Positions 10,495 to 61,960 of a DNA stretch of 64,000 nucleotides are shown piece by piece. How positions within the stretch are numbered: position 1 is the first letter of the stretch; every line of letters starts with the position of its first letter. Location of the stretch: positions 56,823,251-56,887,250 of the forward strand of contig CM056994.1 in assembly GCA_029891345.1 (NCBI GenBank). The letters run 5' to 3'. The notes beneath the pieces were generated by a model. That model was not told the DNA's origin and did no database searches. It saw only the letters and a program-made list of their open reading frames with translations. A program made the translations under genes and the position numbers. Source of the stretch: Dryococelus australis. Lineage: Eukaryota > Arthropoda > Insecta > Phasmatodea > Phasmatidae.

Positions 10495-10501
10495 CTTTAA
10501 C

Positions 10502-11155: not shown

Positions 11156-11220
11156 TATACATGCTTGCCAACGTATTCCCTGCGTTAATGGTTTGCTATT
11201 GGCCTGGAAGTACGGTATGT

Positions 11221-12470: not shown

Positions 12471-12477
12471 TGCAACA

Positions 12478-18700: not shown

Positions 18701-18940
18701 CGTGAAATTGTTATTGCTGTAATTATATAGCGTTACTTTGAGACATTTCTGAGAGGAGTACTAAAAACTAGGTTTTATTTAAAGACTAGGAGAACCAGCT
18801 CGTGACCTTTTTTTTTTTGTATTGTCGCGGGGCTAGATCAGTTACCGAGTTAAAAATTTGGTTATCATACAAAGACTGAAAAAAATATTGCATGGATATA
18901 TGTAGGTAATAATGAAATAATGTGAAATTAACTCATTGAA
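15709..18940. other. Unassigned 3.2 kb AT-rich region
   Basis: No recognisable coding, RNA or tandem-repeat feature, apart from a lone element end near 16950-16972. Small open frames such as 15730-16107 (plus) and 15592-15996 (minus) overlap each other on opposite strands and carry no motif. Confidence 0.4.
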
Positions 18941-19680: not shown

Positions 19681-19986
19681 TTAACTCATCAATGAAGTGA
19701 GACATCTATAGTAAACAAAAATGGTATTCCATTACCTTCATATCTCTATGCAATATTCTCTATGCATTAATACAAAACTTTCATAGGAAAAAATTAATTA
19801 AAAAATTAGTTTTTAGGGTAAAAGGTAAGGTAATGGTTGCGTAATCTGATCTTGCTGGAATTCGAACTTGACCTGAATTTTACCCTGACGATTCGCTCTG
19901 CAAAATCTGAAGAACTTCTGTTTAGTTTCAAGGGACTTACAGGTATTATTAAAGGCGGACAGACAGACAGACATCGTATACTTATT
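19681..19986. other. Unassigned spacer
   Basis: AT-rich, with a short gacagacagacagac run near 19963. Nothing else supported. Confidence 0.4.
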
Positions 19987-20232
19987 ATAGGCCGTTCACG
20001 GTAAAGTGAGCACTTTTTAAGGCCCTTCCAAACTTTACTTTCAAACTATTTTTTATGTTTAAACCACTTTTTAATATCAGTATTGTCATGTGGCTAATAA
20101 ATATGGTGCATACTTTCACCAATTTCAAAGGTTAATGTCTGAGACTGCAAATAAAACATATTTATTAGTGGTTAATACCTGTTTGGGGGGGGGGGGGCTT
20201 AAAAAGTGCTCACTTTATCTTGAAAAACCTAT
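19987..20232. mobile_element. MITE family B
   Basis: Left end taggccgttcacggtaaagt, right end aaagtgctcactttatcttg and aaaaacctat. The interior holds gcaaataaaacatatttatt and a 12-13 bp G run. Its interior is closest to the 56759 copy. Confidence 0.85.
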
Positions 20233-30870: not shown

Positions 30871-31301
30871 TAAAGGTTGTTCACTGTTAAGTGAGCACTT
30901 TTGAGAACACGCTTAAAAAAAGAAAAGTCGCTGTCCCTGCCTGCATATATTTAAACGGGCGCAATGAGTGACATGCGGCCAGTGAAGTTGGTGACGATAG
31001 ATGGAGAGTAGTTCCATATCTTACTGTCAAATAAGAAGTGTTAGTTAACAATTTGTGTCAACTAAGATTATTTCTTTCCTTTTTATTCTTTTTAAATGTA
31101 TTAACATGTAAAAATAAGCAAATTTGTAAAATATTAACTTTTCAAATAATTCCACTGTTTCGCTTGACCAACGCATTAATAGAGTGACAAAGCTCATGAT
31201 AATGTTAATTTTTCAAATGGCGGAAGATTACACAACGTGCATGCAAGTAGATACTAAGCAGGGCTTTAAAAAGTGCTCATTTATACAGTGAACAGCCTAT
31301 A
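30871..31301 (-). mobile_element. MITE family A, full length
   Basis: Left end aaggttgttcactgttaagt, right end tcatttatacagtgaacagc. All internal blocks are present, including ctgcctgcatatatttaaac and aacgtgcatgcaagtagata. Confidence 0.9.
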
Positions 31302-42879: not shown

Positions 42880-43130
42880 ATGTTCTGGGTGGCTCTTAAC
42901 ATCGAGGTCTTGAGAGCCGATTGGGGTGTAACGAGGTGGGTGTGGAGCAGCGCCGGAATGCGGGGGAGGTGGGTAACGGGAGATCCCCGCGAAAACCCGC
43001 CTACCAGTGGCATCGACAGACACGACTCCCACGTGCGAAAATCCGGGAGCGGCCCCGCCAAGAATCGAACCCGGTTCCCCCTAGGTGGGAGAAGAGTAGT
43101 TTAACCACTACACCACCGCGGCTCCACTAC
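42880..43130 (-). mobile_element. tRNA-derived SINE, family 1 (best copy)
   Basis: Read on the minus strand: gccgcggtggtgtagtggtt (A-box at GTAGTGGTT), then ccgggttcgattcttggcgg (B-box), a ggtaggcgggttttcgcggg core, gcattccggcgctgctccac, and cctcgatgttaagagccacc at the 3' end. It is the least decayed of the four copies and defines the family. The frames read across it (42679-43104 and others) are not genes. Confidence 0.9.
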
Positions 43131-44575
43131 AACCCGGGGACACAAGGAAACTACTACAGGATAGCCACTAAATGTCATCAGATGTCTTTATTGGAGTGTA
43201 AGCTTTGAAAACACTGTTCAACGTATGTGTGACGTGGGGATCAGCGAGACAGCAGCAAGACGAGGCCTGTTTATTTTCTCACGTCCATCAACGGAAGACC
43301 TTAACGAATAGTTACGCGGAAAATGGCGTAAGCCACACGAGTGCACCCAGATAATGCTATTCTCCTACAGCTCTTTTTTTTTTCTCCTTCGAATTGCGAG
43401 GCGCCATTGAAGGTCAGATTCAGTGTTAGAACATCTGTCTCGTCACTGCCATCAACGAGTCCCCTATTCTACTCGCTACCATGTCGGTTGCAGCGCACGA
43501 AATAGTTTATTTACGATTCGTGCACCGTCACGTCAAGAGACGTTGTCTTAAAATTTTTTAATAAATAAACGTGAAAGCTGTGTAGCCATCGCAGTAAGCA
43601 AATTTTTCTCGCCAAGTGAAGCCAACGCGCGCTTGATACTAGATTTCGCAATTTGTTCAAAAACGGTCGGGAGAACAGGAAACTTTTTAAAGCACAATAT
43701 TAAAAGCCCCATTCAGAAAAACAGAAAATTAAAATTATATTAATTTTTAGATTCTAAATGGACTACTTTTAAATCCAGTAGACAGATTTTTTTCCAACGA
43801 ATTAATATAGCTGAGGTATTAGCGCGATAAGTTTTTGATCGTACAAGTCCATAGAAAAATTAACAAAAATTATTGTACGCGCACGTATACTATCATCTCG
43901 ACACACGTATAGTGCATTAATGCATGTAATGCACATATATAAATTGCATTGGTTTAAAGTAACGCCTTGAAGAGTATTGTGGTTTTATTCAATTTCCGTT
44001 GCTGAATTTCATTACATGCAAATTTAAATATTACCCTACAATTGTCGAACATAGTTCCAAATTTTCCTATCAATATTGTGTTAATTTTCCTCTTTTGACG
44101 ATAACCATAAACGTGAGAAAATAAACATTCGTCTCGCATTAATTTTCTACTATTTTTAAGTAAATTTAACCATAATTTATATTTTAGTGCTAAATGTTTG
44201 GAACAGCATTATCATACTGTAAAACACATCATTACAGTTTTCCGTGAAATAAACAAATAAATACACGTACAGACATACAGATACGTAGTAATATTGTAAG
44301 TCGAAGACAAGTTTGATATTATCAGCATTTCAATATAGACCTGTTATCAAATTTTTCGCTAAGAATAATTCAGATCTCTTCGGTGAAAATCAATGGAAGA
44401 ACGCATTTCAGTAACGGTTTGCGAGAAGAACATCAGCACTAGTCACATCACACTTCACAGCCGACCGTTATTGATCGGCGTGGATTAGCAAGGGGAAATC
44501 GAACGATGCACCCGAACTATTCCCAGCGGTTCTACCATATACTGCTGTAGAAAGTTAATGCGGATATTACTTAGC

Positions 44576-44576
<1 letters not shown>
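43131..44576. other. Unassigned AT-rich DNA
   Basis: No feature that I can support. Confidence 0.4.

Positions 44577-44641
<65 letters not shown>
44577..44641. repeat. (TA)n microsatellite
   Basis: About 65 bp of pure TA. Confidence 0.98.
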
Positions 44642-44643
<2 letters not shown>

Positions 44644-44737
44644 TCTGCGGATTTTGTTTTCTGTAAAATGGCATTGGTATTAGTTTTTTTAATTTACTGA
44701 ATGACACACTGAATATTCTTATAACGAAAACTAACTC

Positions 44738-45100
44738 TCTGAAGTATGCATGTATGTAGGTATATATGCAAGCATATATGCATTTATGTATGTATGCATG
44801 CATATATGCATTTATGTATATAGGCATGTATGCATCTATGCATTTATGTATATAGGCATGTATGCATCTATGCATGTATGTACAATGTATGCATGCATAT
44901 ATGCATGTAAGTACAATGTATGCATGTATATATGCATGTATGTATGCATGTTCGTATACATGCATGTATGCATTTGTGTATGTAGGCATGTATGTATGAA
45001 TGTATGTACGTATGTATGTAGGTATGAATACATATGTGTATGTATGCATGTATGTATGCATGTGTGCATGTATGTATGTATACATGTATGTATTTAGGTA
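44738..45100. repeat. (ATGT/ATGC)n tetranucleotide array
   Basis: About 360 bp of tatg/catg-type tetranucleotides with a higher-order ~36-40 bp duplication (gcatttatgtatataggcat repeated at about 44810 and 44850). It creates long artificial Tyr/Met/Cys and His/Tyr/Thr frames on both strands. Confidence 0.95.
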
Positions 45101-45405
45101 TGGCTTAAGGAACCCACCTAACTTGAGCTTGAATTGCGCTGCAGACTGTTTGACATACTCGTTTTCCTACGAAACTATTTGACGTCCAATCTCCTAACCT
45201 ATGAAAATAACACACACTTCAAAGAGGCCTGTTGAGTGGTTTCAGGACGTCACGCACATTAGAAATTCCACAGAGTACTTTAAAATGGCTAAAAATGGCT
45301 CTTTCGAAGCGCTATATCATAAAATACGTGTCAGATACATACAAAACTAATCGAGTGTCCTGCATCGAACATTGCCGCAGGATGCCCACCAATAAAATAA
45401 TAGGG

Positions 45406-45633
45406 TTACTGCTGAATATCTCGTAAGCATGTGCAGCACGACGACAATGCACGCCAATTAAAAGGCTTGCTCTTAGCGACCTTGGCACACTTGATGCGCG
45501 TGGCCGTTTTGCCCTTATCGCTCTCGCGCTTCTCGGCCTCAGACGCAGAAAATAGCTCCAGATAGGCGAGAGCCTTAAGGTAGAAGTAGAATGGTTCCCA
45601 GTGGAACTTCGTACCCGACTGTACAAGCTGCAC
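45406..45633 (-). CDS. Candidate exon or gene fragment, unknown product
   Basis: A 75-codon frame on the minus strand with coding-like features: G/C-biased third positions and a helix-rich translation (FYFYLKALAYLELFSASEAE, then KRESDKGKTATRIKCAKVAK). It stands in AT-rich surroundings. I do not recognise the family. The same DNA is also open in an overlapping minus frame (45312-45626). It could be an exon of a split host gene, a processed-pseudogene fragment, or chance. A family A MITE end begins 8 bp beyond it. Confidence 0.35.
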   Translation of the reverse strand: MQLVQSGTKFHWEPFYFYLKALAYLELFSASEAEKRESDKGKTATRIKCAKVAKSKPFNWRALSSCCTCLRDIQQ

Positions 45634-45640
45634 AGCTCAT

Positions 45641-45725
45641 TAGAGGCTGTTCACGGTAAACTGAGCACTTCTGACATCCATGCTTAAGGTTAAATGTTAT
45701 GAATATGTAGTGAGATTCTCTACCG
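45641..45725 (+). mobile_element. MITE family A, terminal fragment
   Basis: gaggctgttcacggtaaact gagcacttctgacatcc and tgcttaaggttaaatg match the family A left end, then homology stops. Confidence 0.7.
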
Positions 45726-46559
45726 AGTGATGGCAGCACTTTCGGAATAAAATTTGTTAAGCAGATAACTTGAAAACCCTTGCGTGGATTTTAAATCTGA
45801 AAACGGAATTGTACATCGGAAAACCACGCGTATTTAGCAAATTAGGTCGTTTTTTATTCAAAATAGATTGTATAATTAAAGTCAGTATAGACAGAAACAC
45901 ACAATAATCAACGTCAAAAAACAGAGGAAGGAATCACCCATACTTTTCAATAATGGACTATACCCGCATTCACCTACAGTTACCTCAGGAAATTATGGGT
46001 AGTCGTAATCAGGATGGCCAAATCTGTATTCGAACGTGGTCCTCGCGAATGCAAGCCTCATTTAGGCCTATTACCACAACTTTTTTTTGTGTTATACCAG
46101 ATGCACTGAATGAAGCCCATGAAGGCTTACAAAGCCAATTGTTGCCCATACTTTTCCAGTCTGCCATGTAGTTCTGAGAGTTGTAAGACATTCTAGGAAG
46201 AATTTTTGGAACTGTGTAAAAAAATAAAGGTAATTCTTGCGGAAATTAATGTACGTTTAATACACGCGGAGGAAAAAATTACACAATAGGGCCAGTGGCC
46301 AGCCAAATTTCGTTTCATATTAGAATGGAATACATTACAAATCTTTGTGCAGTTATTTACAGAATTATGAAAATACAAAATATTTATGCCCTTACCATAA
46401 ACTTTTACCAAAGATATTCCTCCTTTTCTACAGTGATTGAAGAAAAAATATGTTATTTCAAATATGACTGTAATAAGTGTATTTCCAAAATATATTACCA
46501 CCATAACATCGGCAATGTGCAACAACACAACAAAAGACAAATAAACCTTCGTATTACAT
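45726..46559. other. Unassigned
   Basis: AT-rich. Short frames (45953-46171 plus, 46193-46579 minus) show no motif. Confidence 0.4.
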
Positions 46560-47340
46560 TGGGAGAAAAAAAACATCAAACTGTGTGCTTAGAAGAATCA
46601 AGTTCCCGAATTGGTAATGATCTCGTCATTCTCGGGTTGATTATCTCCGGAAGAATGACTTCTACATGGCAAAACTGGAGTTTTTTGGTCATTTTCATGT
46701 TCCAAAAATAGTCGCATTTTATATTTCTTCTATGTGTTTATTTTTGTGGGTCCAAACTACAAAGTGTGGATTTTTTCTCTCACTGATCTGGAGTAGTCCT
46801 TGGACCTGATAATAGTGGCCTTGTCTCAGTTTTTTTGTAACTGGGTCTATGCAAAACTTTTTTTATTTTTCTGTAAGCTTCTGTGATAGTCATGTCTTTG
46901 GCTGATTCCGGACATTTTATTTATCTTATTGCATCATCTCCTACGACACCATCGGGGGAAGCACCTTGAAAACCATACGTTCTATGAACAAAAAGTCCAC
47001 GTAGGCCTGTGTTACGTTCGAAACATCGTCTAGCTATTCCTTCATGATTGCAGCCGTATTACACAGCTCGGGAACGTTAACTGCCGTAAAGGCCACTTTG
47101 GCCTTCTTTTATAGTTACATACGTCATATATAAAGTTAGAAGCTGTTAATCTGTTTTTTTTTTTTTTCGAGCCATGTGCCATTTTTCATTTCCATTTTGT
47201 CCTCTAGTTTCTATCTACAATGCTGTTGTTTCATTATAATTCAAATTCAGGTCTTGTAATTTCTCTTTCTTCAAATCTTTCATTTCTTTGTCTTCAATGA
47301 CTAGTTGGGTTGCCAATTCGCCATGGCCTTGAGATCCATT
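46560..47340 (-). pseudogene. YqaJ/lambda-exonuclease-like nuclease, decayed
   Basis: Minus-strand translations, spread over frames, show the family's blocks in order: IETRGQNGNEKWHMARK and RLTASNF (about 47225-47125), CNHEGIARRCFERN (about 47040), GASPDGVVGDD (about 46955), IKCPESAKDM (about 46910), YYQVQGLLQIS (about 46795) and FWNMKMTKKLQFCHVEVILP then EIINPR (about 46690-46630). The core is PD-(D/E)XK type: the aspartate is in SPDG, and the ExK glutamate before IKCP is now a TAA stop. Relatives digest DNA from 5' ends and support recombination in phages and some DNA viruses; invertebrates carry multi-copy versions. At least two frameshifts and several stops disable it. A MITE truncates the upstream side. 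Confidence 0.8.
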
Positions 47341-47362
47341 GTTAGCCTTCCTTGGTGTCTTG

Positions 47363-47734
47363 TATGAACTTTGTGTATTATTCTGCTTTATGTAAAATTG
47401 ACATTGACAAGGGCCTAATCACTTTATTCATGCGTCAGCCAAGAGAAACTGTGGAATTATTAGAAGAGTAAATATGTTACAAATCTGGTCAACTTTTTCA
47501 CTTCGAGGCATAAAAAAAAATCAGAAACCGAAAGGAATATTTCAAGTTATTATAAATGGTTACCTAACACGTTTTGTTTGACGTTAAGATGTGGAACTAC
47601 TTTTCCATACACCATTACCAACTTTACTGGGCGCATGCCACTCAGTGCGCCTGTTAGAATATATGCAGGTGGGAGCAGTGACTTTTTTCTAAGGTTGATT
47701 TCAAAAGTGCTCACTTTATCGTGAGCAGCCTTTA
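47363..47734 (+). mobile_element. MITE family A, 5'-truncated
   Basis: Begins at atgaactttgtgtattattc and runs through ggttacctaacacgttttgt and cactcagtgcgcctgttaga to the right end gctcactttatcgtgagcag. The first ~50 bp are missing. Confidence 0.85.
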
Positions 47735-47778
47735 AAAGTAGTACACGCACTATAAAAATAGTCAGCAAAGTGTGATTT

Positions 47779-48993
47779 ATGTTACATAGGAAAGAAGTAT
47801 AAATATATCTTGTAACACTGTTAAATCTTTTGCTATAATTTACACTGAATCAACCCATGTTATATTATGGGGGTTGGTATTGCAAAAACAAACTTTTTTT
47901 TATTAGTGCTGTTCTTAAGCTGACATAACTACTCTTCTTCGTTACCACAACCAATAAGCTATATGCTTTGTGCTCGGTGATCAGTGACATGGACTAGTCA
48001 TAACGTAGAGCAGTGACACGGCGTAGGTATCAGTTACTCCCAGGAAACGTCATTAGGCACTGAGTCTCGCAGTGTGCAAACCCGGTAAAACTGTGCAACA
48101 ATTACACAGTTGTCTAAATCGGCATGAAAAGGTTACATTGCTGTAGGTACGGACTCCTGATGTACTGATGCGCCGTTTATCAACCGATTGTTAACTGAAT
48201 CTCTATAAAGTAATGTTTCACTGAGTAATAATATAGATTTATAATGCACTGGTACGTGCTCACTCCTTCCATCGAGAGCGAACGAAGAGGACAGAAAGTC
48301 GTTATATGATAGCGGCGGCAGAGCGAGCGATGATGGCCGCGTATCAGTTACAAAAAGCAAGCCGACACTTTAATCTCCTCTGCGACGCAACGCTGCGGAT
48401 CCTGGTTGTATTTATTTCTCCGTTTATCTGAAGAATGTTCTGGATTACTGACCTCGTACTCTCAGCGCAACTCGGGGTACGTTGAACCTTCGATATGGTC
48501 AGGGCAACGCTATAAATATTGCGACAGGCTACCGGACCGGGAGATGAGTTGGAGTTGATGAGTGAATGAGTGGCTGAGTTCCGAGCGATAGAAGATCGAG
48601 CGGCGAGAGAAGCGACCAATGTAAGGGAAGTCAGCGACTGCGAGTATCAAGCAGTAAAGGATGAGGCTGTCAGGCTTGACTATTGGACTAGATGCTTGAG
48701 TGAAACACGTTATAAATTATGGCAACACATAGACTGAACACGTGTTAATGAGTTTGAGTTAATTGACTGTAACGAACAGAGACAATTAAGAAGAACGTTA
48801 ATTAGAATTGAAATAGACATTAAATATTGCGCTCACTGTTAAACAAAAAGATTAAAAGTAGAGGCAGATAATTTAATGCTGTAAATAATAGCGGAGTGAA
48901 TAAATTACAAATCAAATTTAGTTATTTTATTTTCTTATTAAGATCTCCATCCCTCACGAACTCAGATACGCCCCTCAGGGTTCAGCACGTAAC
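47779..48993 (+). mobile_element. Possible solo LTR
   Basis: The segment starts tgttacatagg and ends cacgtaaca, giving short inverted ends (TGTTAC/GTAACA). It contains a TATA-like ctataaatattgcg at about 48509, a GC-rich stretch after it, and an aataaa signal at about 48897. This order resembles an LTR retrotransposon long terminal repeat. No matching target duplication is visible, and no second copy is in the window, so the call is weak. Confidence 0.25.
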
Positions 48994-49304
48994 AGTACGA
49001 TGATGGGTACCAAGTTTATAAAATACGGTAGTTAAGTATTTTAAAGAGCATAATAAAGTTTACTCATAAATGACCGTCGTCTTACTCATATTTACTTTAT
49101 TGTAATTTTTTGCAGTATTTGTATTCATTTAAATCACTCGATAAACTGTATATATCGCACTTCGTGTGTTCATAGATTTTGCATACAATCGCGGAATCTA
49201 GCGATCTTTTGAGGCAGAAATATTCCAGCCGAAGTAGTGTTCGTGAAAAATTCGTCAGAGGAAATTGGAACACATCATAGCTGGTTTCGGTAGACACAGA
49301 ATTG

Positions 49305-49357
<53 letters not shown>

Positions 49358-49646
49358 CTTAAATGACAGTTCACAACTTGGCCTGTCTGACGTTAAGTTC
49401 TTTGGCTTTTCACTGCAGATTTTTCAAAGTCAACTGGATGCTTGTGGAATCCTTCATAATTCCCTTTTTATGCCTACTACGTAATGTTTCATCAAACGTA
49501 AAATTAAAAGATACCACTGACTAATGTCGTAGATTCACGTATCGAGTATGTGCCGCTATAAAATTGTTATAAATATACATTTTACTGCTAGTTTTTGCTG
49601 TAACGTTGATGAAGCTAAATGAAATAGATTTAGCCTATGTAGTGTT

Positions 49647-49699
<53 letters not shown>

Positions 49700-50378
49700 T
49701 GTGTGTGCGTGCGTGCGTGCGTGTGTTTGTGTGTGTGTGTTTATCTGCACGTGTGTTAAACGTCTGTTTATTTGTTGACAATATTTCGGAAAGTGTGATA
49801 AGTAATGTTTACGTTACTAAACGTATTCGTAACTACGAAATATTTTCTCTCAAAAGTTGATTCAAATGTTAACACATTACCTCGAATACACTCTACATCC
49901 TGTATACCTGCTTCACGAACGTTCAATGACGGTACGAGCTATTATTAAAAGAAACCACATCTACCATTGAAAACGCGTTGTTTCATTCTGACACTGCGTT
50001 ACCAAGAAACCAGTTCGTAAACAGACAAGCTAGAAAGGCACAGTCACGCGGCAATTCTTAAAACCTTGCGGCATAACTTTGGTGTTAATTTATATTACTA
50101 ACCGACGTAAGTGGAATAGTTTTATTTTTGTAGGGTTGGAAAAGGGGGGGGGGGGGGGTGATTACGAAGTAAGAAGTCCTGGGTTCGAGTAAGCATTTTT
50201 TAAAGCGTAAATTAAAATTTATTTTGCAGTGTAATATGATTTCCTCTTTGACTACAGGTCTGAGTATAAAGCATGGGATTTAATAACAACAGTAAAAAAA
50301 ATTTAACTCGCTAATTAGATAATATTTCGTAATCAACAAGCATAAATATATGTAATTGCGTGTAGGAACACACACAGG
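48994..50378. other. Unassigned AT-rich DNA with two TA microsatellites
   Basis: (TA)n at about 49311-49356, and (TA)n followed by (GT/GC)n at about 49652-49742. A 15-bp G tract lies near 50143-50158. No gene supported. Confidence 0.6.
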
Positions 50379-51054
50379 TATACAGGATGATACGAGACTC
50401 AATCAACATAATTCAGCAGCGTGTTATACAGATCATTGGAAACAAAAAATGTCATGTACACAATCACAATTTGGCTATGCAGCTCCATTTCAAAGTTACG
50501 GGGACTTAAATGCAATAAAAAAGAAAATTGAAATGACTGAATATCGCTGATGCAATTGACTACATTCATGTTATTAAGTCCCACACAAGCTGTTAAAAAT
50601 GTTCCCTATATGACCGTAAAGCCGGCCCTACACGATACGCGTTTCCGTAGCAGTTTTCATACTCATTTTCCCGCTAACGTTTCTGTTCCCGTGTAGGTTA
50701 CAATCCAGCCTCCTCCGGAGGGGTCTGGCTCCGGGTATAGCAGTTTCCGTACCCATGGGCATGTCCGAAACGGTAATAGAACGTGTTCTAAATATCTGCT
50801 ATACCCACGGAGCTACGACAGACAAGATGGCTGACACTCGAGTATTAACCTCAAAACGTATATGTCCGTATACGAGAAAATTACGGGTTCTGTACAACGT
50901 ATTTATGTACAAAGTGGAACTTAATGTACTCATAAATAACGGGAAACATTTTTATTTACCCCCACGGTCATAATAAACACAATTTAAAAAAATGTGTGTT
51001 AACTATGGATTTTTAGAGTGTATGTAACATTTTGCACGGCACACCTACAAAAAT

Positions 51055-51437
51055 GTGCGAGTAGCTCAGTGGTGGGTACTGCCCCCATAGTTCATGGGTA
51101 GGGTGGCCACATGTAGTCGAGGGGTCGTGGGTTGGCACCCCGGCCCCTCCGCGGCAGATTTTCAATTTGCTTGTCGCACTGGGAACTTGTCAGCAAGTCG
51201 GTCTCACTTGAGCGTTGTCAACGTCAAATGTCCCAACAATGTCAAATGAAGGAAACCGAAAAAATATATATATGTGGTTTCGTGCGTTGGTTCGCGCCAC
51301 ATAATTATAGGTTTTAGAGTTCAAATCTCCATGTAACGAAATCTTTTCAGTAATTTTATGTGATACATTATTGCTGTTTATAATTTAAGTTATTGCCTTA
51401 AAATGTTTATTTCTAGTATATCTTTGTCTAAAAGCAA
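51055..51437 (+). repeat. tRNA-like module, interrupted by a SINE at about 51080-51287
   Basis: gtagctcagtggtgggtac resembles a Pol III A-box. After the insertion, ttttagagttcaaatctcca resembles a B-box, then aaaatgtttatttctagtat. The inserted sequence has its own tRNA-like part (gtagggtggccac, gtgggttggcaccccggccc). The second, oppositely oriented module lies at 51492-51690 and is uninterrupted. Confidence 0.55.
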
Positions 51438-51491
51438 TAATACAAACCAAAGCTAAATAAAAAAAATACAGGCAGCCGATTTCGCTGTGCA

Positions 51492-51690
51492 GTTATTAGC
51501 ATATTATTGCTTTTATACAAAGAAATTCTCGAAATAAACGTTTTCTGACAGTAATGTAACCTATAAACGACAATAAACTATTTCATAAAATAATTAAAAA
51601 TTTCGTTACGTGACGGAGATTTGAACTCTAAAATTTTTTTGGTACTAACCCATGCACTAACCCACTCTGCTACAAACACAATTTACAAAT
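51492..51690 (-). repeat. Inverted tRNA-like module
   Basis: The minus strand reads gtagcagagtgggttagtgc (A-box-like) and tagagttcaaatctccgtca (B-box-like), then aaaacgtttatttcgagaat. It mirrors 51290-51437, giving a ~130-150 bp inverted repeat with a ~60 bp spacer. It is absent from the related copy at 12478-13145, so it was added later, by insertion or inverted duplication. Confidence 0.65.
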
Positions 51691-52344
51691 GGAATGTGTA
51701 AACGGTAGTTTTAATATACGTGGCAGGAGTGATAACCCCCAACACACAAAATCTTTATTATTAGTATTGTGATATTTTCCCCTTCTTTTAGTCTCCTAAC
51801 CGTATAAGCTTGTTTAATTACGGAAAGCACAAGATTGATTACTATGCTTGTTAAAGATAAATATTGGAATATTTTAATAATGTTTTAATTAGCCGCGTAA
51901 ACGTCCGTTGTACATAAATGTGAATACAGTACCTTGTTTTTTATACATAAGCAGTGCACGTTACTAACAATATTTTCCATATATTAATAGTCTAGTACAT
52001 GTACTCAGAAACTTAAATAAATACAGTCTTCAGGGGGGAAAATAGTCTTCGTACTTTTTTGATGTACCACAAAGCTCTAACATATAATATTTGATTGCAT
52101 TTGTAGCCCTGCCAACTGCGGAATGTCTGCCATTTGCGAGTAGTTTTTGCCTGACATTTACAATTTTCTGTTAGCACTTTTGGTAACGCGTGGGTATGAA
52201 CTGATGTATTCTTTCTTCTCTTCTGCTATTGAAACTTCTAAGCCTTCCGTTATGTCCATGGGTATAACAGAAGGTAGCAGAAATTGGGTATCGTGTAGGG
52301 ACGGCTGAAGCAGACACTGCAAGTGTGGCTGGCATGGCCAGTCT

Positions 52345-52719
52345 TTGTTAGAGTGTCGAGGCGAGTGGTTGTGCTACAATTCCAGAAATGTGTACACATG
52401 CAGTGTACGCAGACATGGTTTTGTATACGGATACTGTGATACAGCAGCTGAGTATCCGCGCAGGTGGATTGGAAGAGGTTTGTCAATCCCATGGCCTGCG
52501 CGCTCTCCAGACCTCTCCCTGTTTGACTTTTTTTTCTGGGGCTGCTTAAAGAGTAGGGTTTACAGCGGACGGCGATCAGACACTCGAGACCAGTTGCTAC
52601 AGATGATAACTGACACCACTAATCATCTCAGAAATGGATTTGCAGGCATGCAGTGGCAGCATGCCATGCCACTAGCCTGTTTACGGTCAGATGTCACGCA
52701 TTTCGAAGAGCTCATGTGA
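52345..52719 (+). pseudogene. Mariner-like transposase, C-terminal remnant
   Basis: Frame open for 124 codons. Around 52490-52570 it encodes WPARSPDLSLFDFFFWGCLK, the highly recognisable SPDL-P-DFFLWG-LK block that contains the second catalytic Asp region of insect Tc1/mariner-type DDE transposases, followed by TRDQLLQMITDTTNHLRNGF. The N-terminal DNA-binding half was lost at the nested insertion or deletion. It is not functional. Confidence 0.75.
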
Positions 52720-52911
52720 GACATTCAACATGCATGCAGTCAGTTACATTAAAGACATTCAGTAATTCCAATTTGTGTTTTTGTTGCATTTACGTCCCTG
52801 TAGCTCTGGAAGGAAGCCGCATAGCCTACTTGGCATTTTTTATTGCCAATGATCTGTATAACACGCTGCCGAAGTATGTCGGTTGAGTTGCGGAACGTCC
52901 TGTGTATGAAC

Positions 52912-52960
52912 ACACACACACACATATATATATAATTTATTTATATATACATACACACAC
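52912..52960. repeat. (CA)n(TA)n microsatellite between two elements
   Basis: CA then TA dinucleotides that separate the two mariner-like elements. Confidence 0.9.
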
Positions 52961-53992
52961 AGGGTGAGGCGCCTAAGGCATGCCACCTGAATAACACTGC
53001 CTTTTTAAGTGATAGAAGAAAACATTTCATACAAAAGTGGCTTGAGTCCAAGGCGCTAATAACACGAGAGCGATAATTTCTCCTTTCGTGGAAGGGTAAA
53101 AAAGACACAAAGGTCAACTTCGTTACTTTAAATGGAATGATAATTTTTATTAACGCCCCTCGACAGTGCGTTTGAAGATGTAATAAATACGATGTAATTT
53201 GCCGTTCATCCAAATTCGCTGAAGGTCAATGACGAAACAAACTGCGCTGCCGCACGGACATAAGGCACTCCATGCGGTACCAACACGACGGATGACTCGT
53301 TCATTCTGCACAATGGATTACAACGGTTGTTAGCGGTACTTTCGGTGGTCGTTGGATCGATCGGTCTGGTAACACGAAATGGTCTACATGTTGCCCAGAC
53401 TTAACGCCTATGGACTTTTTGCTATGGGTAACATTAAAGCAACAGGTCTAAAAAGACCCAACGATGATTCCCGAAGACATGAAACGTCGTATAACACAAG
53501 CTTGTTGTGTGTTAAGTCCAGATGAAATTCGACGTGCAGTATTGTCGGCTCAGAATCGCTTTACAGCATGTATCAGTGTACAAGGTCACCAATGTGAACA
53601 CCTGATATCAATAATAAAATAACAAAGGAAGAGTAGCCCGAGGCTGGCGTTAGTTTAAACAAACGCCAGCTACAGGACGGATACAATCGCTACGGGACAG
53701 CGTCACGTCGGCCCATTGTTCCGTGTGGCGGCGCAGTTTGCTTCGTCATTGACCTTCAGCGATCTTGACTGTACGGCAAATGTCATCGTATTTACCACAT
53801 CTTAATACGTACCTTCGAAGGGTGTTTATAGAAATTATCATTCCATTTAAAGTTACGAGGTTGACCCGTGTGTCTTCTTTACCCTTCCACGTACGGGGAA
53901 ATAATCACTATCAATTTATTTGCGCCTTGGACCCAAACAACTTTTAAGTGAAACATTTCCTTCTACCAGGTGGCCTGCCTTAGGGGCCTGTA
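52960..53992. mobile_element. Second mariner-like element, ~290 bp TIRs
   Basis: The left end (gcgcctaaggcatgccacct) and right end, reversed (cccctaaggcaggccacctg), extend as inverted copies for nearly 300 bp, up to the shared tgaaggtcaatgacgaaaca near 53220-53240 and its complement near 53740-53758. The centre carries a decayed transposase. Length is ~1.03 kb. It differs in sequence from the 50379 element but has the same architecture. Confidence 0.85.
53345..53625 (+). pseudogene. Mariner-like transposase remnant
   Basis: One frame reads CCPDLTPMDFLLWVTLKQQV, a stop, then DPTMIPEDMKRRITQACCVL, SPDEIRRAVLSAQNRF and GHQCEHL. The SPDLTP-DFFLWG block and the C-terminal G-H-EHL end are typical of arthropod mariner-like transposases. 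An internal stop and the missing N-terminal half make it a pseudogene. Confidence 0.75.
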
Positions 53993-54570
53993 TATATATA
54001 TATATGTGTATATATCGAAATACTGCAACTTCGCAGAAGGTCATCATGTACTCCACAAAGAATTGCCGCAATTACCGCAAATAATGTCACGTGTGCGTGC
54101 CACTTATTCTACACGTAAAACTTCACTGTCCAAAATTTTTGTACTTTATTGCGTACACGAGTAAGTACTTAATGCACGATGGAATTTTACTGTCACGGAA
54201 TTATTTGGAAAACTACGATCCCAACTACACAATTTTTACCAGCGTATTTTAGGCGGGAAATGATAAAAACGTAGTTATTATGTTGTCATTTTGGAGTAAA
54301 AAAAAAAATTACCTCGCGGAAGATCTAAGGTTGTTATTGCAGTTTCACGTATCGCAGGCATCAGATATGATTTTTCGCTCTCCACTAAGGCAAGTTTCCA
54401 AGTGGAAATACTCTTCATTTTCGAAGCGGTAGTGGCAGCTAAGCTCCGCAAGTATCAGGGGAATCAGAATGCAGAATGAGGCGGGGGCGAAGAAGGCATT
54501 TGAACCCCCTTCCCTTCAGACTCGCTAAGGGCAGCCACAAGCAAACAACGTAGATGAAAATTCATGTATG

Positions 54571-54609
<39 letters not shown>

Positions 54610-54990
54610 CTATTTACTTACTATTGTCCATTCGCGGTCACTTACAACTTTACTGAAGCCCTGCCAATGTTCTACTTCCAGGATATTCCTTCGCCGCATG
54701 CTAACAATGTTTCACCGAGTCTACAGAATTACACCAAAGGAACAACGCACCGCGATCGTGCGCATACACTGTAACAACATTCTGCATGAGAACTATTTCA
54801 TACTAGGCATTGCCAACACGCTTATTCTCTCTCTCTGTTTTTATTGATATTATTTATAAATGAAATATTATAATTTGCAGATAAAAAACGTCATGCATGA
54901 ATGAGGTGATTTTTCAAAGGCTTGATTCAAAAAGTGTGAACAAACCGCGAATAGACTCTACACATGTATATCAGTAATCATACGAATTAT
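53993..54990. other. Unassigned; (TA)n at 53989-54004 and 54575-54605
   Basis: AT-rich DNA with two short TA repeats and no gene supported. Confidence 0.5.
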
Positions 54991-55403
54991 AGGCTGTTCA
55001 CGGTAAAATGAGCACTTCTGAAAGCACTGCTTAAGATCTACTTGTAAACCCGCCGTGTATTCCTCCACCTTATGCAAAATTAATTATGCCATGGGACTCA
55101 TCACTTTATTCATGCGAAAGTCAAATGAAACTGTGAAATTAATAGGAAAGTAAACATTTTATAAATCAGCTAATTTTTACACACTGATGCATAAAAAAAA
55201 AACAGAAAGCGAAATAAATAATTTGAATTATCACAAATGGTTACCTAACGCTTTTTATTCAATGTTAAACTATGTAACTACATTCCACCCATCGTTACCA
55301 ACTTTACCGGGCGAATGCCACTCAGTGCGCCCGTTGAAGTATATGAGGCACGGGCAGTGTTTTTTTTTTTGCTTGATTTCAAAAGTGCTCACTTTATCGT
55401 GAA
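54990..55403 (+). mobile_element. MITE family A, full length
   Basis: taggctgttcacggtaaaat at the left, aaagtgctcactttatcgtg at the right (last bases decayed to aaaatt). Interior blocks are complete, including acaaatggttacctaacgct and cactcagtgcgcccgttgaa. Confidence 0.9.
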
Positions 55404-55879
55404 AATTTTGAAGTATCAAGTACGCCAGATTCTCTACATGATCGTGCAATGTTCCCCCTCCCCACCAGCGGACCAAAAGTGGTTCCGACAACCCTGTGAG
55501 TCTGCGATGAAAAATACGTCGGGGGCTCTGCTTGCCGATTATCTCAGCAACCGCCGACGCTATCGTTCGCACTTCCCCAGTGCTCATAGTGTTTGTTTAA
55601 AGACGGAGTCAAGTAGAGAATCATGCGAAATTTCCACCGGGCCCAAAGAAAATTAGAGAACTTCCGAGCAGTGTCCGCGGTCATGAAGCACTCGATTAGA
55701 TCAGAGCAGAATCACAGAGTTCTGTTGTACTGTATGCTGCTTTCACGTCGCGTGGTGATGTGCGTGTGAATTTCATTGGCGACAAGTCTTTCAAAGATCA
55801 TGCAGAGGGCTTCACGCTTCTGATGGTGCCGCGACTCGCTAAGGCAACAGTCATCTCACGTGGCGTGGAGGAAGGATCG
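55404..55879. other. Unassigned
   Basis: Moderate GC, short frames on both strands, no recognisable product. Confidence 0.4.
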
Positions 55880-56125
55880 GTCATGGTTCAAGCCCGACCT
55901 CGGGTAAGATAGGTCTCGTCGACAGTGAGGTAGGTCATTGTAGGACGGGGAAGGAATCGACCTTGGCGTGTATCGTGTCGGACGGTACCACTGGCCGGCG
56001 AACTTTCTCGGGGATCTCCCGCCCCTCCCCCCCGCCCTCTCATTCCGGCGCCGCTACATACTCACCTCGCTTCACCCTCATCGGCTCTCAGGACCTCGAT
56101 TTTAAGAGCTGTCCAAATCTCTTCA
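55880..56125 (+). mobile_element. tRNA-derived SINE, family 1, head decayed
   Basis: The body is clear from about 55962: gtgtcggacggtaccactgg, ctttctcggggatctcccgc, cattccggcgccgctacata, ctcacctcgcttcaccctca and aggacctcgattttaagagc. The tRNA-like head upstream is much altered. A separate B-box-like ggttcaagcccgacctcggg sits at 55884. Confidence 0.75.
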
Positions 56126-56219
56126 CTCACCCCGAATGTGAGTCGGATGGTTTACCAATGTTTCACTTCGTTCGATTAGCTTCCGGTAAAAATTTAGTTT
56201 CTGAGCATCGAACAGCGAT

Positions 56220-56460
56220 ATAGGCTGTTCACGGTAAAGTGAGCACTTTTTAAGGCCCTTTCGACAGTTATTAACGACTAATAAATCGATTTTATTGCAG
56301 CTCCAGACGTTAACTTTTGTTAGTGGTGAAATGTATACACCGTGTTTGTTAGTCTGATGGCAATATTTATGGTAAAAAATGACAGGAAGACAAAAATCTA
56401 ACGAAAAGAACAAATCAGCAGGGCCTTAAAAAGTACTCACTTTACCGTGAACAGCCTATA
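56220..56460. mobile_element. MITE family B
   Basis: taggctgttcacggtaaagt at the left and tactcactttaccgtgaaca plus gcctata at the right. The terminal ~35 bp are near perfect. The interior has cagctccagacgttaacttt and gtggtgaaatgtatacaccg. Confidence 0.92.
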
Positions 56461-56569
56461 TAATATGGAAGTTTCCGGCTTCACATTCCTTTCAGTGCGT
56501 AAACATACGACGCAGATTTACCTCTAATTCTGAGTCGTCACAGAGGATTCGCGCGATAGTGCAGTTGCG

Positions 56570-56758
56570 AATGGAAGCACCGCGGCTACAGGGTCAGGGT
56601 CAGGGGGAAATGAAGCAGCAATGGAATGCAGGGACACAGAAAGGGGGGAGATGAGACCGCCCCGAGTAAAATCACCTGCCAACGACAACACAAAGTCGCA
56701 CACGTGCAGGAACCCGGATTGGCACCACCCGGGGGTCGAGCCCGGGTCGGCATGGTAA
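56570..56758 (-). mobile_element. tRNA-derived SINE, another family
   Basis: Minus strand: ccgacccgggctcgaccccc (B-box-like GGGCTCGACCCCC) near 56750-56720, then a body with gtgattttactcggggcggt and tgcattccattgctgcttca, ending in the simple ccctgaccctgaccctg. The A-box side is incomplete. It lies between two family B MITEs. Confidence 0.5.
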
Positions 56759-56999
56759 GTAGGCTATTCACGGTAAAGTGAGCACTTTTTAAGGCCCATC
56801 AAAAACTTTCCCTTCATCCTATTTCCATCTTCCTGTTGCTTTCTAATATAAACATTGCTTTGTGACGAATAAACACAGTGTATATATTTCTCCACCCTCA
56901 AAATTTAATGCCTGATGCTGCAATAAGATATATTTATTAGAGGTTGATGCCTGTTGGGAGGGCCTTAAAAACTGCTCACTTTACCGTGAACAGCCTGTA
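56759..56999. mobile_element. MITE family B
   Basis: aggctattcacggtaaagtg at the left, ctgctcactttaccgtgaac at the right. Interior taaacacagtgtatatattt and caataagatatatttattag are closest to the 19987 copy. Confidence 0.92.
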
Positions 57000-57049
57000 T
57001 CGCGAGTTGCATAATTGCTACACACCTCCGTCTTGCCACGCTGGGAAGG

Positions 57050-57293
57050 GTCTTGGGCGGCTCTTAACATCGAGGTCTTGAGAGCCGATGTGGGTGAAGC
57101 GAGGCGAGTATGGAGCAGCGCCGGAAGCAAGGGAGGATGGAAACGGGAGATCCCCGAGAAAACCCGCTAACCAGTGGTACCATCCGGCACGATTCTCACA
57201 CGCGAAAATCCGGGGGCGACCCCGCCGGCGATCGAACCCGGTTCGCCTGCGTGAGAAGGGTCGCGGCATAGCTACGTGCTCCCCTCCTCCGTA
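57050..57293 (-). mobile_element. tRNA-derived SINE, family 1
   Basis: Minus strand: ggagcacgtagctatgccgc, gaaccgggttcgatcgccgg (B-box), gtgccggatggtaccactgg, gggttttctcggggatctcc, ttccggcgctgctccatact and gacctcgatgttaagagccg. A nearly complete copy. Confidence 0.9.
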
Positions 57294-57299
57294 CTTTTT

Positions 57300-57618
57300 T
57301 TTTCACGGTAAATTGCACACTTTTGAAAGCCCTGCATAGGAACTAATGGTGTACCCTTTCGCCTTATATAGGTACAATTAACATTGCCGTGGGCCCGATC
57401 ACGTTATAAATGCGTCAATCAACAAGTAAACTCTGAAATAAAATAAAATAAACTTATTTTACGCTTGTATGTATTTGAAAAACAGAAAGCAAAATAAATA
57501 ATTCAAGGTTAAGACATAGAACTACTTTCCCTTCGTCGTTACTAACTTACCGGGCGGATCCCATGTGCAGGTAAGGCAGTGAAATTTTCAAAGGTTGATT
57601 TCAGGAATGCTCAAGTAA
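57300..57618 (+). mobile_element. MITE family A, internally deleted
   Basis: Starts at ttcacggtaaattgcacact and ends near tcaggaatgctcaag. It lacks part of the centre and both outermost terminal bases. Confidence 0.75.
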
Positions 57619-58027
57619 AGGCTGTTGACGTTACAGTGAGCACTTTCAAAATCAGCACTTGAAAAATGTCACTATCCCGACCTGCATGCATTTTTAACGG
57701 GTGCACGTAGTGGAATGCGCCCAGTAAAGTTGGTAACGTCGGAGAGAAAGTAGTTCCATATCTCAACTGTGGATTACAAGTGTTCGGTAAACATTTGTCA
57801 ATACTACTATGATTAATTTTCTTTCCGATTTTATAATGCATAGAATTGTATGGATTGGAAAATGGTAAAAATATTCACTTTTTTACTAACTTTACAGACG
57901 CATGAATAAAGTTATCAGGCCCCGCGCAATGATGATTTTACATAAGGCGGTAGGATATACAATGTGCTTACAAGTATATTTTATGCAGGGCTTTCAAAAG
58001 TGATAATTTTATCGTGAACAGCCTATA
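57619..58027 (-). mobile_element. MITE family A, full length
   Basis: aggctgttgacgttacagtg at the left, ttttatcgtgaacagcctat at the right. Opposite to, and directly abutting, the preceding copy. A further cccgtgaacagcatgta scrap follows at 58028. Confidence 0.88.
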
Positions 58028-58309
58028 CCCGTGAACAGCATGTACTCGAGTGGCGTTTCGCCTGCCCTCCCTCACTCCCCCCAGCAGCAAAACCTCCTGC
58101 GCGCCGCGAATTAATAATAAACAAGTTGGCGGGCGCTTGGCCGGCAGCTGTTTAGCTCCCGCGCTACGTCACACAACACATATGCGTGTGTTATTATTAT
58201 TTTTTTTTTTGTTGGTTGGCGTGGCCGGGCGCCCAGGGAACTCTGGCTCTTTCACACGCCGCCAATACTCACAGCGCCGTGCTAATTCTCTTGCGTCTTT
58301 CTCCTCAAC

Positions 58310-58310
<1 letters not shown>

Positions 58311-58381
<71 letters not shown>

Positions 58382-58396
58382 CCCCTCTCTCCCCTA
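58311..58396. repeat. (CT)n microsatellite
   Basis: About 80 bp of CT followed by a C-rich tail. It generates a spurious Ser/Leu-rich frame. Confidence 0.97.
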
Positions 58397-58466
58397 CTGG
58401 ATGTTGGCGCTGGTGTCTACTCTGGAGCCCGGCGTTCTCTATACAATCCCGCAATCCCGTACCTAA

Positions 58467-59165
58467 GGCCCCTGTCACACTGTAAAATTTTTCCTGTCAA
58501 ACTGCTTTCAATAAGTTTGGTCAATTACAGTTGGACAGTTATGGCGTCATTGAAACGTCATTAACGCCGCCATATTTGTCTAAAAAAAAAAAAAAAGTTA
58601 AATGGCTTCAGTTTCCTCAAACATTTGAAAATTGGACCGGTTCTAAAATTTATTTGATGTTTGACGGTCTCATGCAATCAGAATCGTGCACAACAAAAAA
58701 GGACGTCAAGAAACTTAAAATAACGAACAATTGGTGGAAACGAAGTAAGTTGTGATGATAATTTATATATTTAAAGCTGTCTGGGAATTAATGCTATTGT
58801 AGGTGAATTTGCACATAATATTACACACCCAGAGGCATTAAATTTCATTGTGCAGGAAACATCTCTGATTAATAAAAAATTTTATTTAGTTATGAATCGA
58901 AAATAAATTACGATATTACTTAAATGTCGTCCTGGAATGGACCGCATAGAAAAACAAAAGCAATAACTCGCTATGAAAATAATTTTTAAATAATATTTCA
59001 AATTAGATTATCTAAATAAAAGAAATTTGATAGTGAGCTACGTCTTCAAATACATTCAAGATTATTTGATCGAATTTGTTGGAAGGAAAAATTTTATGGC
59101 CGTATTTTGTCCTCAAATTTTACTGTCAAATACATTTGAAAAAATTTGACAGTGTGACAGGGGCT
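58467..59165. mobile_element. 699 bp TIR element, TAA target duplication
   Basis: Ends ggcccctgtcacactgtaaa and, reversed, agcccctgtcacactgtcaa give ~15-25 bp TIRs, with direct TAA on both sides (58464-58466, 59166-59168). Three-base TAA/TTA duplications and GGCCCTGTCACAC-like ends fit PIF/Harbinger non-autonomous elements. A 74-codon frame inside (58531-58755) has no recognised domain. Subterminal aaatttgac-type motifs recur. Confidence 0.8.
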
Positions 59166-60329
59166 TAAGCGAGCCTGTCAGCAAGGTGTCATTGTTTTAT
59201 ATTACACGAAATACTGTCCAGTTTTTACATAATGCGTGTACGACCACTTCATGGCTACTTCCAACTTTTCTGATGCCCTGCTGAAGCTCTACTTTCGGGA
59301 TATTCCTCCTCCTCATTCAAACAAAGCTTAAAAAAATTACACCAGATGGCCAACGCACCGGATTCGTGTGAACTCAACGTAATAATATGTCGCATAAGAA
59401 CTATTTATTACTAGGCAACACCAACACAACTATTTTCTCTGTCTTTATTTATATCAAAGGAAGTCCCTGGCGCGTGTCTGTCTGTGACTGCATTAATCTC
59501 GATATCCACTGAATGGATTGGATGCGGTTTTTGCTGTTAAGATATGTATTTATCGAGGAAGGTTTATGTGTATTAAAAATTGCCCATATCACATATAAAA
59601 GAGCTGAGCATTAATGGTATTAGTGAATCAAGTCGGAAAAAAGTTTTTTAATACACATAAATTTAATACACATAGATTTTTTTTTTTAATTAAAAAAAAA
59701 TCTAAATTGTACCCGTGCGTAGCCGGGCCGGATCACTAGTTAGTTATAAATGATAACTTTTATTTGAAGGATTTCAAAGTTTGTTGTAACAAAATGTAAG
59801 ATACATTTATGTAAACACAAGTATAAAATGCTTGTGATATATGACATATTTAAGAAGCAACCAAAAACGTCATAATTGGGGTGTTTTTTCAATGGGTTGA
59901 TTAACTATTTTTGTGAAGAAACTGCTATTCGACTATAATGTAATTTCCCGTAGTAACTATAAATCTACAAGTCAAACAGGCCAAAGTCAAATTATTTATG
60001 TTTTTGAAAGACACTAGTAAAACAAACAATACAATTTAGAATGCACATTAGAAATATATAAGCGAAAACGTATTGTACGCACGAACATTCTTACATTTAA
60101 TAGTAAAAATAAATGAAAATTAAAAAATTCATTTATTTCATATCTGTACTAATATCATAAATAGGTAATGTGAGTTTGTTTATTTGTTTATATGTATAGG
60201 GTAGTCCTGGAAATTTCACGGCCGATTGTTGTATTTTTTTTACTATTACAAAGCTACATTCTTCCAGATGGACATAGTGTTTCTAACTGCTGCATGGGAT
60301 AATTACATGAACTGTATTCTGGCTTACAG
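59166..60329. repeat. AT-rich DNA with dispersed repeat termini
   Basis: The block 59450-59740 (agtccctggcgcgtgtctgt ... acccgtgcgtagccgggccg gatcactagt) resembles a widespread invertebrate repeat. It ends in a short CCCG/CGGG hairpin followed by CTAGT, as Helitron 3' ends do, but this is not proven. The block 60140-60300 (ataggtaatgtgagtttgtt ...) looks like the opposite end of a related repeat. Confidence 0.35.
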
Positions 60330-60534
60330 GCGCGATTAAATTACTGGATTTGCACATGTTTTCAGCATTTTATTAGCGAGTAGCCGCGCGCGGCTATACA
60401 ACACATCTGTCTTCCTCCAGACTCTCTTCACAACTGAGCGCGAGCGAGCCCTTGCTGTAAAAAAAAAAAAAAATCGTCCTTGAGGTCTCGGCTTCGCAGA
60501 CCACAAACAATACAAAAAGTATTGAGTTTCAACA
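60330..60534 (-). mobile_element. BEL/Pao 3' LTR (inner end clear, outer end approximate)
   Basis: On the minus strand the LTR starts at tgttgaaactcaatactttt right after a purine-rich tract. It contains a cgctaataaaatgctg poly(A) signal near 60370. The outer end could not be fixed because the 5' LTR is outside the window. Confidence 0.6.
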
Positions 60535-60553
60535 TGCCGGCCCCCAAAAAGGG
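60535..60553 (-). promoter_or_regulatory. Polypurine tract
   Basis: The minus strand ccctttttgggggccggca directly precedes the LTR and would prime plus-strand DNA synthesis during retrotransposition. Confidence 0.6.
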
Positions 60554-60777
60554 ATTGAGCCACTTTTTCTACTACACATTCAGATATCGTAAATGCTAAA
60601 TGTTACGCATCACAACTTATGACTGCAAATGATAACACTGAACACAATGATACAAGAAATACATACACAATAACTCGAATGGTACATTTGCGTAAGATCA
60701 ATGTCATTATGCATAAGCCATATGTAATCATCATTATGTTCAGTTCAGTACACAGTAAAAATGTTCTGGCACCACCA

Positions 60778-61960
60778 TTAATTCACTGGCAGCAGACATA
60801 GCTTCGTAACTGGTCTCTTGTAGGTTCCAGCAGAGATCCGGACAGTAGCTACTCGTACCAGTTTATCAGTTCTTGAGTGGACCTCTTCGATGACTCCCAT
60901 TCGCCAGCATAATGGTGGTACATTGTCTTCCTTTAACACCACTAATTCGCCAGCCTTTATGTTGGTAGAATATGATGTCCATTTGGCCCTTTGCTGTAAA
61001 AGGTTCAAGTACTCCTTGGACCATCTGTGCCAAAACTCTTGATATTTCTGTTGAAGTAGTTGCCATCTAGAGAGCAAGCTAAGTTTAACATCACCTAAAT
61101 TTGGTTCAGGGATATTTGTGAGAGCTGTAGGGTCACTGGGATCATTAGAGAGTTTAACAAAGGGTCTGGAATTTAGGCAAGCTTCGATTTGGGTCATCAA
61201 TGTGACGAGCTCTTCATATGTCAAACATGTGGTCCACATAACACTGTGTAAGTGGGATTTTAAAGATGTTATGCCAGCCTCCCATAGATCACCGAAGTGT
61301 GATGCTCCAGGAGGAATGAAGTGCCACTTCATTCCTTCCTGTGTGGTGAAGCCAAGAAGACAGGCCTGATGATTTTCATTCTTAAAAAGAATGTACAGTG
61401 CTTGCAGTTATTTCTGAGCTCCTAAAGAATTGCTTCCATTGTCACTGTAGATGTTGTCACATCGACCTCTTCGTGACACAAACCTCTTCAGAGCTGCCAT
61501 ACATGCCTGAGTGGTCATATCAATCACAACTTGTAAGTGGATTGCCTTTGTAGCTATACAAATGGAGATCGCAAATTAGCATTTAATCTGAATCTTGCTC
61601 TTAAATGTTCCCGATTTTATGTAGATGGGTCCAGTGTAATCCACTCCACAGTTGAGGCAGGGTCTTGCTGAATTGACTCGACTGTGAGGCAACTGACCCA
61701 TGAGATGTTGGGAGGTTTCTGCCTTCAGTTTTTTACAAACAATACAGTGATGATGATGAAGGATGCTTCGAATGGAAGCTTTTCCATTTACAATCCAAAA
61801 GGTTTGTCTTAATGATGAAAGTAACAGCTAAGAATTTGTATGAAGCAACCACAGATGTTCTCTTTCGATGACCAACTGTGTTAGGTGATGTCTCGGAGGC
61901 ATAGTTATTTTATGTTTCCATTCAAAAGGAAGTTTCGAGTTCTGGAGCCTGCCACCAATG
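60778..61960 (-). pseudogene. BEL/Pao integrase and C-terminal DUF5641-like domain
   Basis: From upstream to downstream on the minus strand: KHKITMPPRHHLTQLVI, then HCIVCKKLKAE (integrase zinc-finger H and C residues), LPHSRVNSARPC and VDYTGPIYIKS (first catalytic Asp), IYSDNGSN (second Asp), FGDLWEAGITSLKSHL (catalytic Glu), then the DUF5641-like end with FWHRWSKEYLNLLQQR, GELVVLKEDNVPPLCWRMG and RPVTKLCLLPV. Only the last 184 codons (60778-61332) are open; stops and frame changes interrupt the rest. The enzyme would insert the cDNA into the genome. Confidence 0.9.

Follow-up and report, generated by a model that had tools for sequence, protein, structure and literature searches.

Introduction

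Passages of two papers (PMC4482050, PMC9179366) describe animal ISL2EU transposons as encoding a THAP-DDE transposase and, as a second gene, an open reading frame (ORF) for a YqaJ exonuclease. Autonomous ISL2EU elements average ~4.8 kb, and the role of such extra ORFs in transposition is stated as unknown, both according to passages of PMC4482050. KolobokE encodes a nuclease similar to lambda exonuclease, and Kolobok elements have TTAA duplications and RR ends, as described in part of PMC9587614. A literature search pairing Kolobok with YqaJ found nothing. YqaJ genes have also been counted among transposon-related families (in a paper on a scallop; PMC10225492) and filtered out as transposon genes (in a paper on a weevil; PMC13289751). 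Here we describe the remnant of a YqaJ-like gene in a 64,000-nucleotide stretch of DNA from Dryococelus australis (assembly GCA_029891345.1, contig CM056994.1, positions 56,823,251 to 56,887,250 of the forward strand; hereafter the window). A single copy of a miniature inverted-repeat transposable element (MITE) is split in two around the remnant, and this nested structure is what is new.

The fossil is genuine, ordinary and of a kind already known, and its nesting is neat. A first-pass annotation of the window had called the type of element that carries such genes poorly described. That does not hold, since passages of published papers describe both ISL2EU (PMC4482050, PMC9179366) and KolobokE (PMC9587614) as carriers.

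A broken YqaJ-type nuclease gene

We confirmed by sequence comparison that the minus strand of positions 46560-47340 carries a broken gene of the YqaJ/lambda-exonuclease type (PD-(D/E)xK), that is, a decayed DNA-cutting enzyme of phage type. As delimited by Pfam, PHROG and block coordinates, the remnant spans 46630-47339 on the minus strand. It is interrupted by stops and frame changes, and the gene may lack its 5' part.

The first-pass annotation had proposed a YqaJ-like nuclease fossil on this strand and suggested a search with the YqaJ Pfam profile, and that search was significant. A hand-picked frame-0 piece, with X written at the stops, matched PF09588 with E=5.1e-7 (30.5 bits; cut-off 22). 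The match weakened to E=2.2e-6 when a 303-residue frame was the query and to E=5.6e-5 (23.9 bits) with the whole 9-kb frame (3,000 residues), which makes whole frames a blunt test for domains. The remnant also matched PHROG 434 (RecE-like exonuclease; E=4.8e-5), starting around the ETRGQ block, and the solved exonuclease 3syy (E=2.8e-4). Matches to lambda exonuclease were too weak to count (6m9k, E=0.72; 1avq, E=0.73), and the Viral_alk_exo profile gave 15.7 bits on the remnant, under its cut-off of 20. A curated profile thus places the remnant in the YqaJ/lambda-exonuclease family, as a dead relative: SPDG and the K of the D...ExK motif are kept, and the Glu position is a stop. We attribute to chance or low complexity the below-cut-off matches to ATG7_N (in the piece search), LegC3_N, DnaA_N, DUF2130, RHG20_PH, DUF3915, Atrophin-1, Pre_tape_measure and ACPS.

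All of the sequence blocks named in the first-pass annotation were found, in the order given there and spread over three frames of the minus strand. These are ETRGQ..W (47211-47161, frame 0), RLTASNF (47152-47132, frame 2), N-x-E-x-x-AR (within 47058-46924, frame 0), SPDG (46959-46948, frame 0), IKCP (46920-46909, frame 0), YYQVQG (46814-46797, frame 1) and LPEIINPR (46653-46630, frame 0). Between 46560 and 47358, stops take up 8 of 266 codons in frame 0, against 22 of 266 and 17 of 265 in the other minus-strand frames. The best-preserved piece, from N-x-E-x-x-AR to SPDGVVGDD (46924-47058), reached E=6.9e-4 and 20.4 bits in Pfam when used alone (cut-off 22). The piece YYQVQG...FVVWT (46722-46862), which is in a different frame, had no Pfam match alone. 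It also had no confirmed relative among 18 pattern matches in viral_contigs and 87 in genome_contigs, a search that detects close relatives only.

We tested the profile across the whole window with a hidden Markov model built from 11 relatives in viral contigs, all fetched with one piece of the fossil. The targets were all stop-to-stop pieces of at least 12 residues in the six frames of the window (n=3,448). The piece at 47058-46924 ranked first (E=2.7e-6; profile positions 79-125) and the piece at 46862-46722 second (E=0.091; profile positions 142-173). The two are on a common strand and keep the order of the profile, in differing frames. The third-ranked piece was elsewhere, at 22200 (E=0.64). 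The rank of the first piece is biased because the query that fetched the relatives contained it; the second piece was absent from that query, and its rank is free of that bias. The RLTASNF and LPEIINPR pieces gave no YqaJ match, and no search tied them to the family. Two of the viral-contig relatives (L001 and L003) have a block comparable to RLTASNF (T-A-S or T-S-S). RLTASNF and LPEIINPR would fit animal YqaJ proteins.

The glutamate of the ExK motif has been lost, as the first-pass annotation had claimed. An in-frame TAA (46923-46921, minus strand) stands directly before IKCP. Alignments to 3syy and to two viral-contig proteins place it at the Glu of EIKCP. In the printed alignment to 6m9k_A it is opposite a Glu that is residue 129 by our own count; we take Glu 129 of 6m9k (lambda exonuclease) to be catalytic. 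Selected inactivation through a stop at the catalytic Glu was considered and rejected, as there are further stops and frame changes in the remnant. Because this stop is one lesion among several, it needs no special explanation.

One MITE copy is split around the remnant

We found that the remnant sits inside a copy of a MITE. An inverted repeat lies outside the fossil, with 39-nt arms at 45640-45678 (plus strand) and 47697-47735 (minus strand) that are 85% complementary. These arms are the outer terminal inverted repeats (TIRs) of a split copy of MITE family A, a family of ~424-bp elements that is described below. The short half (45641-45688) is a TIR end of type R and matches family A positions 1-48. 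The long half (47359-47734) holds the interior and the type-L TIR end and matches family A from about position 54. Between them is a segment of 1,670 bp (45689-47358) that holds the fossil and is missing from the 10 other aligned MITE copies.

Both halves have clear matches in the window. By blastn, the short half (45639-45688) matched 54986-55035 at 88% (E=5.7e-12), and the long half matched 6980-7343 (E=1.5e-82) and 8452-8081 (E=2.3e-80). The two halves match adjoining parts of unbroken copies, so the 1,670 bp sit inside one MITE copy. Joined, the halves are 87.4% identical over 420 columns to a family consensus that was built without the split copy; six other copies, all of which contribute to that consensus, are 79.5-91.2% identical to it. 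All 10 of the other aligned copies cross the joint unbroken, including the diverged end at 11155. TA is present on both outer sides of the split element (45641-47734). With TIRs and sequence in common with the other copies, and with its TA flanks, the split host element is itself a member of family A.

The first-pass annotation had placed a MITE, from 47363, against the upstream edge of the fossil. The MITE is real, with homology that starts four bases away, at 47359. However, it does not merely abut the fossil: it is the larger half of the split copy, whose other end (45641-45688) lies beyond the fossil.

There was no second copy of the segment within the window; the best other matches had E=0.006 (DNA) and E=0.026 (protein). 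Near the right end of the segment, ~47320-47343 weakly resembles the MITE joint. In a comparison with the first 70 consensus bases the resemblance was equalled by 28 of 500 shuffles, and with the whole MITE consensus by 201 of 500.

MITE families and other features of the window

With at most 3 mismatches allowed, the window contains 29 occurrences of the core of the terminal repeat, AGGCTGTTCACGGTAAA (1.37 expected); a 20-mer overlapping it occurs 28 times (0.06 expected). Many of the occurrences of the core are ends of MITEs of two families. Family A has full copies at 6927-7350, 8081-8505, 30871-31301, 57616-58027 and 54988-55410, the last with a worn right end; these five are 69-82% alike pairwise. 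Partial copies are at 3-193, 5011-5133, 9635-9988, 10502-10811 and 10976-11155. Family B (~242 bp; 56219-56460, 56758-56999, 19986-20233 and 11220-11458) has only the terminal 30-45 bp in common with family A. That is, there are two interiors on one set of ends. The exact TIR pattern had no match (0) in viral_contigs and genome_contigs.

TA was found on both sides at one offset in 8 of 9 paired elements, with the split one among the 8. At the other eight offsets, any shared 2-mer was on both sides in 0 to 4 of the 9. The nine elements, including the split one, were paired by eye, and the offset was picked after the flanks had been viewed. Elements with no clear pair of ends (54988-55410, a composite at 10122-11155 and the partial copies) were left out of this count. 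We dropped TTAA and TATA as duplications for the MITE, as a 2-mer was shared in 8 of 9 at the one offset only.

The composite at 10122-11155 consists of an L-type MITE end, unknown sequence, the MITE copy 10502-10811, more unknown sequence and an R-type end; it could be a longer related element that has a MITE nested in it. A tandem array of ~100-bp units (391-865) has a consensus that includes sequence resembling the MITE terminal repeat. An inverted repeat at 51344-51600, with 99-nt arms that are 78% complementary and 59 nt apart, is perhaps another MITE.

Elsewhere in the window, a minus-strand DUF5641 domain (PF18701; E=1.1e-33) occupies 60790-61071. The stop-to-stop frame around it (60778-61407) has 209 codons, and no frame among those listed exceeds this length. 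We take DUF5641 to be the C-terminal part of Bel/Pao-type retrotransposon polyproteins. The lack of longer frames, the many MITEs, this retrotransposon-type domain and a kind of gene known from animal transposons all fit an animal genome. There were no tRNAs and no Rfam matches in the window.

Discussion

The reading that we prefer is that a truncated, dead segment of a YqaJ-encoding DNA transposon inserted later into a MITE copy and then decayed; we put its probability at roughly 0.57. In such a history, the animal genome would have held the 424-bp non-autonomous transposon (family A, with the core AGGCTGTTCACGGTAAA and a TA duplication), and the copy now at 45641-47734 would later have taken up the 1.67-kb segment. 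The segment would be a truncated copy of a YqaJ-encoding DNA transposon, most likely of the ISL2EU type and less likely KolobokE. In the intact carrier, a PD-(D/E)xK exonuclease may have been made beside a DDE transposase, perhaps to process DNA ends in transposition. Without a function in its new place, the segment would then have decayed by drift, with stops, frame changes and loss of the ExK Glu codon. The unbroken state of all of the other aligned copies, the diverged one included, favors a later insertion into a MITE copy. Because the gene is broken in several places, the remnant most likely does nothing here.

Several observations weigh against this reading. The segment's own ends do not form significant TIRs (score 11, compared to a shuffle mean of 13.1; 914 of 1000 shuffles scored as high or higher), and there is no clear target-site duplication at its junctions. 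About 5 bp of the MITE consensus have been lost at the joint. Both MITE trees, one of 12 and one of 9 rows, have a star-like shape and leave the order of events undecided: in the 12-row tree the split copy joins the partial copy m193 (support 34), and in the 9-row tree it joins the most diverged copy, m11155, beside the midpoint root (support 56). Six-frame searches of 43001-52000 yielded no transposase domain of the DDE, THAP or helix-turn-helix (HTH) kind. The left junction, TTAA/GG, fits Kolobok better than the A/AT/T of ISL2EU, with the right junction fitting neither. The fossil was compared to viral-contig, phage and solved-structure relatives, a set with no animal YqaJ reference. In addition, a paper on a clam (PMC7826175) places YqaJ domains among endogenous viral elements.

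In a reading that we consider unlikely, the whole 2.1-kb unit (45641-47734) would be a transposon with a YqaJ gene, from which the 424-bp MITEs were derived through loss of its interior. Internal deletion is a frequent origin of MITEs. The outer TIRs are common to the unit and the MITEs, TA flanks the unit as a whole, and the inner segment lacks significant TIRs or a duplication of its own. The split copy also lies beside the midpoint root of the 9-row tree. However, all of the other aligned copies, the diverged end at 11155 included, cross the joint, so the deletion would predate all of them. The branch of the split copy is also among the shortest in both trees, and the unit yielded no transposase domain. 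If the unit were the source of the MITEs, it would represent a further lineage, one with a YqaJ exonuclease on a 2.1-kb TIR transposon with TA duplications and not AT or TTAA; we regard such a lineage as doubtful. We prefer insertion of a truncated or captured piece over an ancestral longer element by somewhat over two to one.

The segment most likely derives, as a truncated and dead copy, from a transposon of the ISL2EU or KolobokE kind, with ISL2EU the likelier of the two. Pfam searches of six frames of 1-19800 and 52001-61900 found no transposase domain, nor did a search of six frames of 45689-46600. Because no such domain was found in the parts scanned, we infer an ISL2EU origin from the gene alone. 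The YqaJ ORF is present as a remnant only; no THAP, HTH or DDE domain was found in 43001-52000 or 45689-46600, and there is no AT pair at the junctions, where one end may be truncated. The TIRs of ISL2EU are 6-259 bp and start with GG. The best end match of the segment, AAGGTTAA/AAGGCTAA, agrees at 7 of 8 positions, no better than shuffles. It leaves room for a very short TIR at 45688 and 47347, at a level no better than chance, and a 6-bp TIR is indistinguishable from chance. When the outer 250 bp of the segment were included, the best match was an A-rich decamer, and 126 of 300 shuffles were as good. Missing marks are what a truncated fossil would show and are no proof, and we do not file the segment as a proven member of ISL2EU.

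An origin of the nuclease remnant from KolobokE, and not ISL2EU, seems improbable. Kolobok has TTAA duplications and RR ends, according to part of PMC9587614, and TTAA followed by GG is found at the left junction of the segment. At the right, the end reads inward GGCTAA, compared to GGTTAA on the left, a resemblance no better than chance. The left TTAA would be expected anyway, because TTAA occurs in the MITE consensus. TTAA on both sides with RR...YY ends would mark KolobokE; TTAA/GG is on the left only, and the right junction has no TTAA. KolobokE would also have its nuclease downstream of a Kolobok transposase domain, and there was no such domain in the parts scanned.

A viral source of the segment, by capture from a prophage or from an endogenous large DNA virus (herpes-like or nucleocytoplasmic), is very unlikely. 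Among the IMG/VR viral contigs, 46 pattern matches yielded 11 confirmed relatives, and the three examined (L001, L003 and L011) look like phage or prophage DNA; the listing of YqaJ domains as endogenous viral elements in the clam also speaks for such a source. In contrast, the alkaline-exonuclease profile stayed under its cut-off, no other viral domain was above cut-off in 43-52 kb, and the YYQVQG piece had no confirmed relative in the close-relative search of viral_contigs and genome_contigs. Chance resemblance is extremely unlikely: several blocks are short, in differing frames and chosen by eye, but matches to Pfam (with both the hand-picked piece and the whole 9-kb frame), PHROG and PDB are consistent, and the Pfam and PHROG searches with whole frames argue against chance.

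Given a transposon source, the remnant of a phage-type exonuclease in an animal genome can be interpreted as debris of a transposon and not as a viral insertion, and nesting in MITEs offers a means to order the arrival of such a remnant. If instead the 2.1-kb unit were the transposon, a further transposon lineage would have recruited a YqaJ nuclease. It would provide one more system for asking what part the accessory nuclease has in transposition.

Comparison with known systems

The segment is like ISL2EU (PHIS superfamily) in having a YqaJ exonuclease gene in an animal genome as, we think, part of a DNA transposon. It differs in that the fossil is truncated and dead, was found with no transposase, significant TIRs or AT duplication, and is in a segment of ~1.7 kb, compared to the ~4.8 kb given in passages of PMC4482050. 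With KolobokE it shares a nuclease similar to lambda exonuclease and TTAA then GG at one junction; in contrast to KolobokE, no transposase domain, second TTAA or significant TIR pair was found at the fossil.

The host element resembles MITEs with TA duplications: the elements are short and in many copies, with TIRs of ~35-40 bp and TA flanks in 8 of 9. It differs from these in that one copy here holds a 1.67-kb segment.

The phage-type RecE-like, LHK-type and lambda exonucleases (PHROG 434 and 149; 3syy and 1avq) are related in sequence to the remnant, and SPDG and ExK align. In contrast to those enzymes, the fossil has lost its Glu codon and its frame, and it sits in eukaryote-like, repeat-rich DNA.
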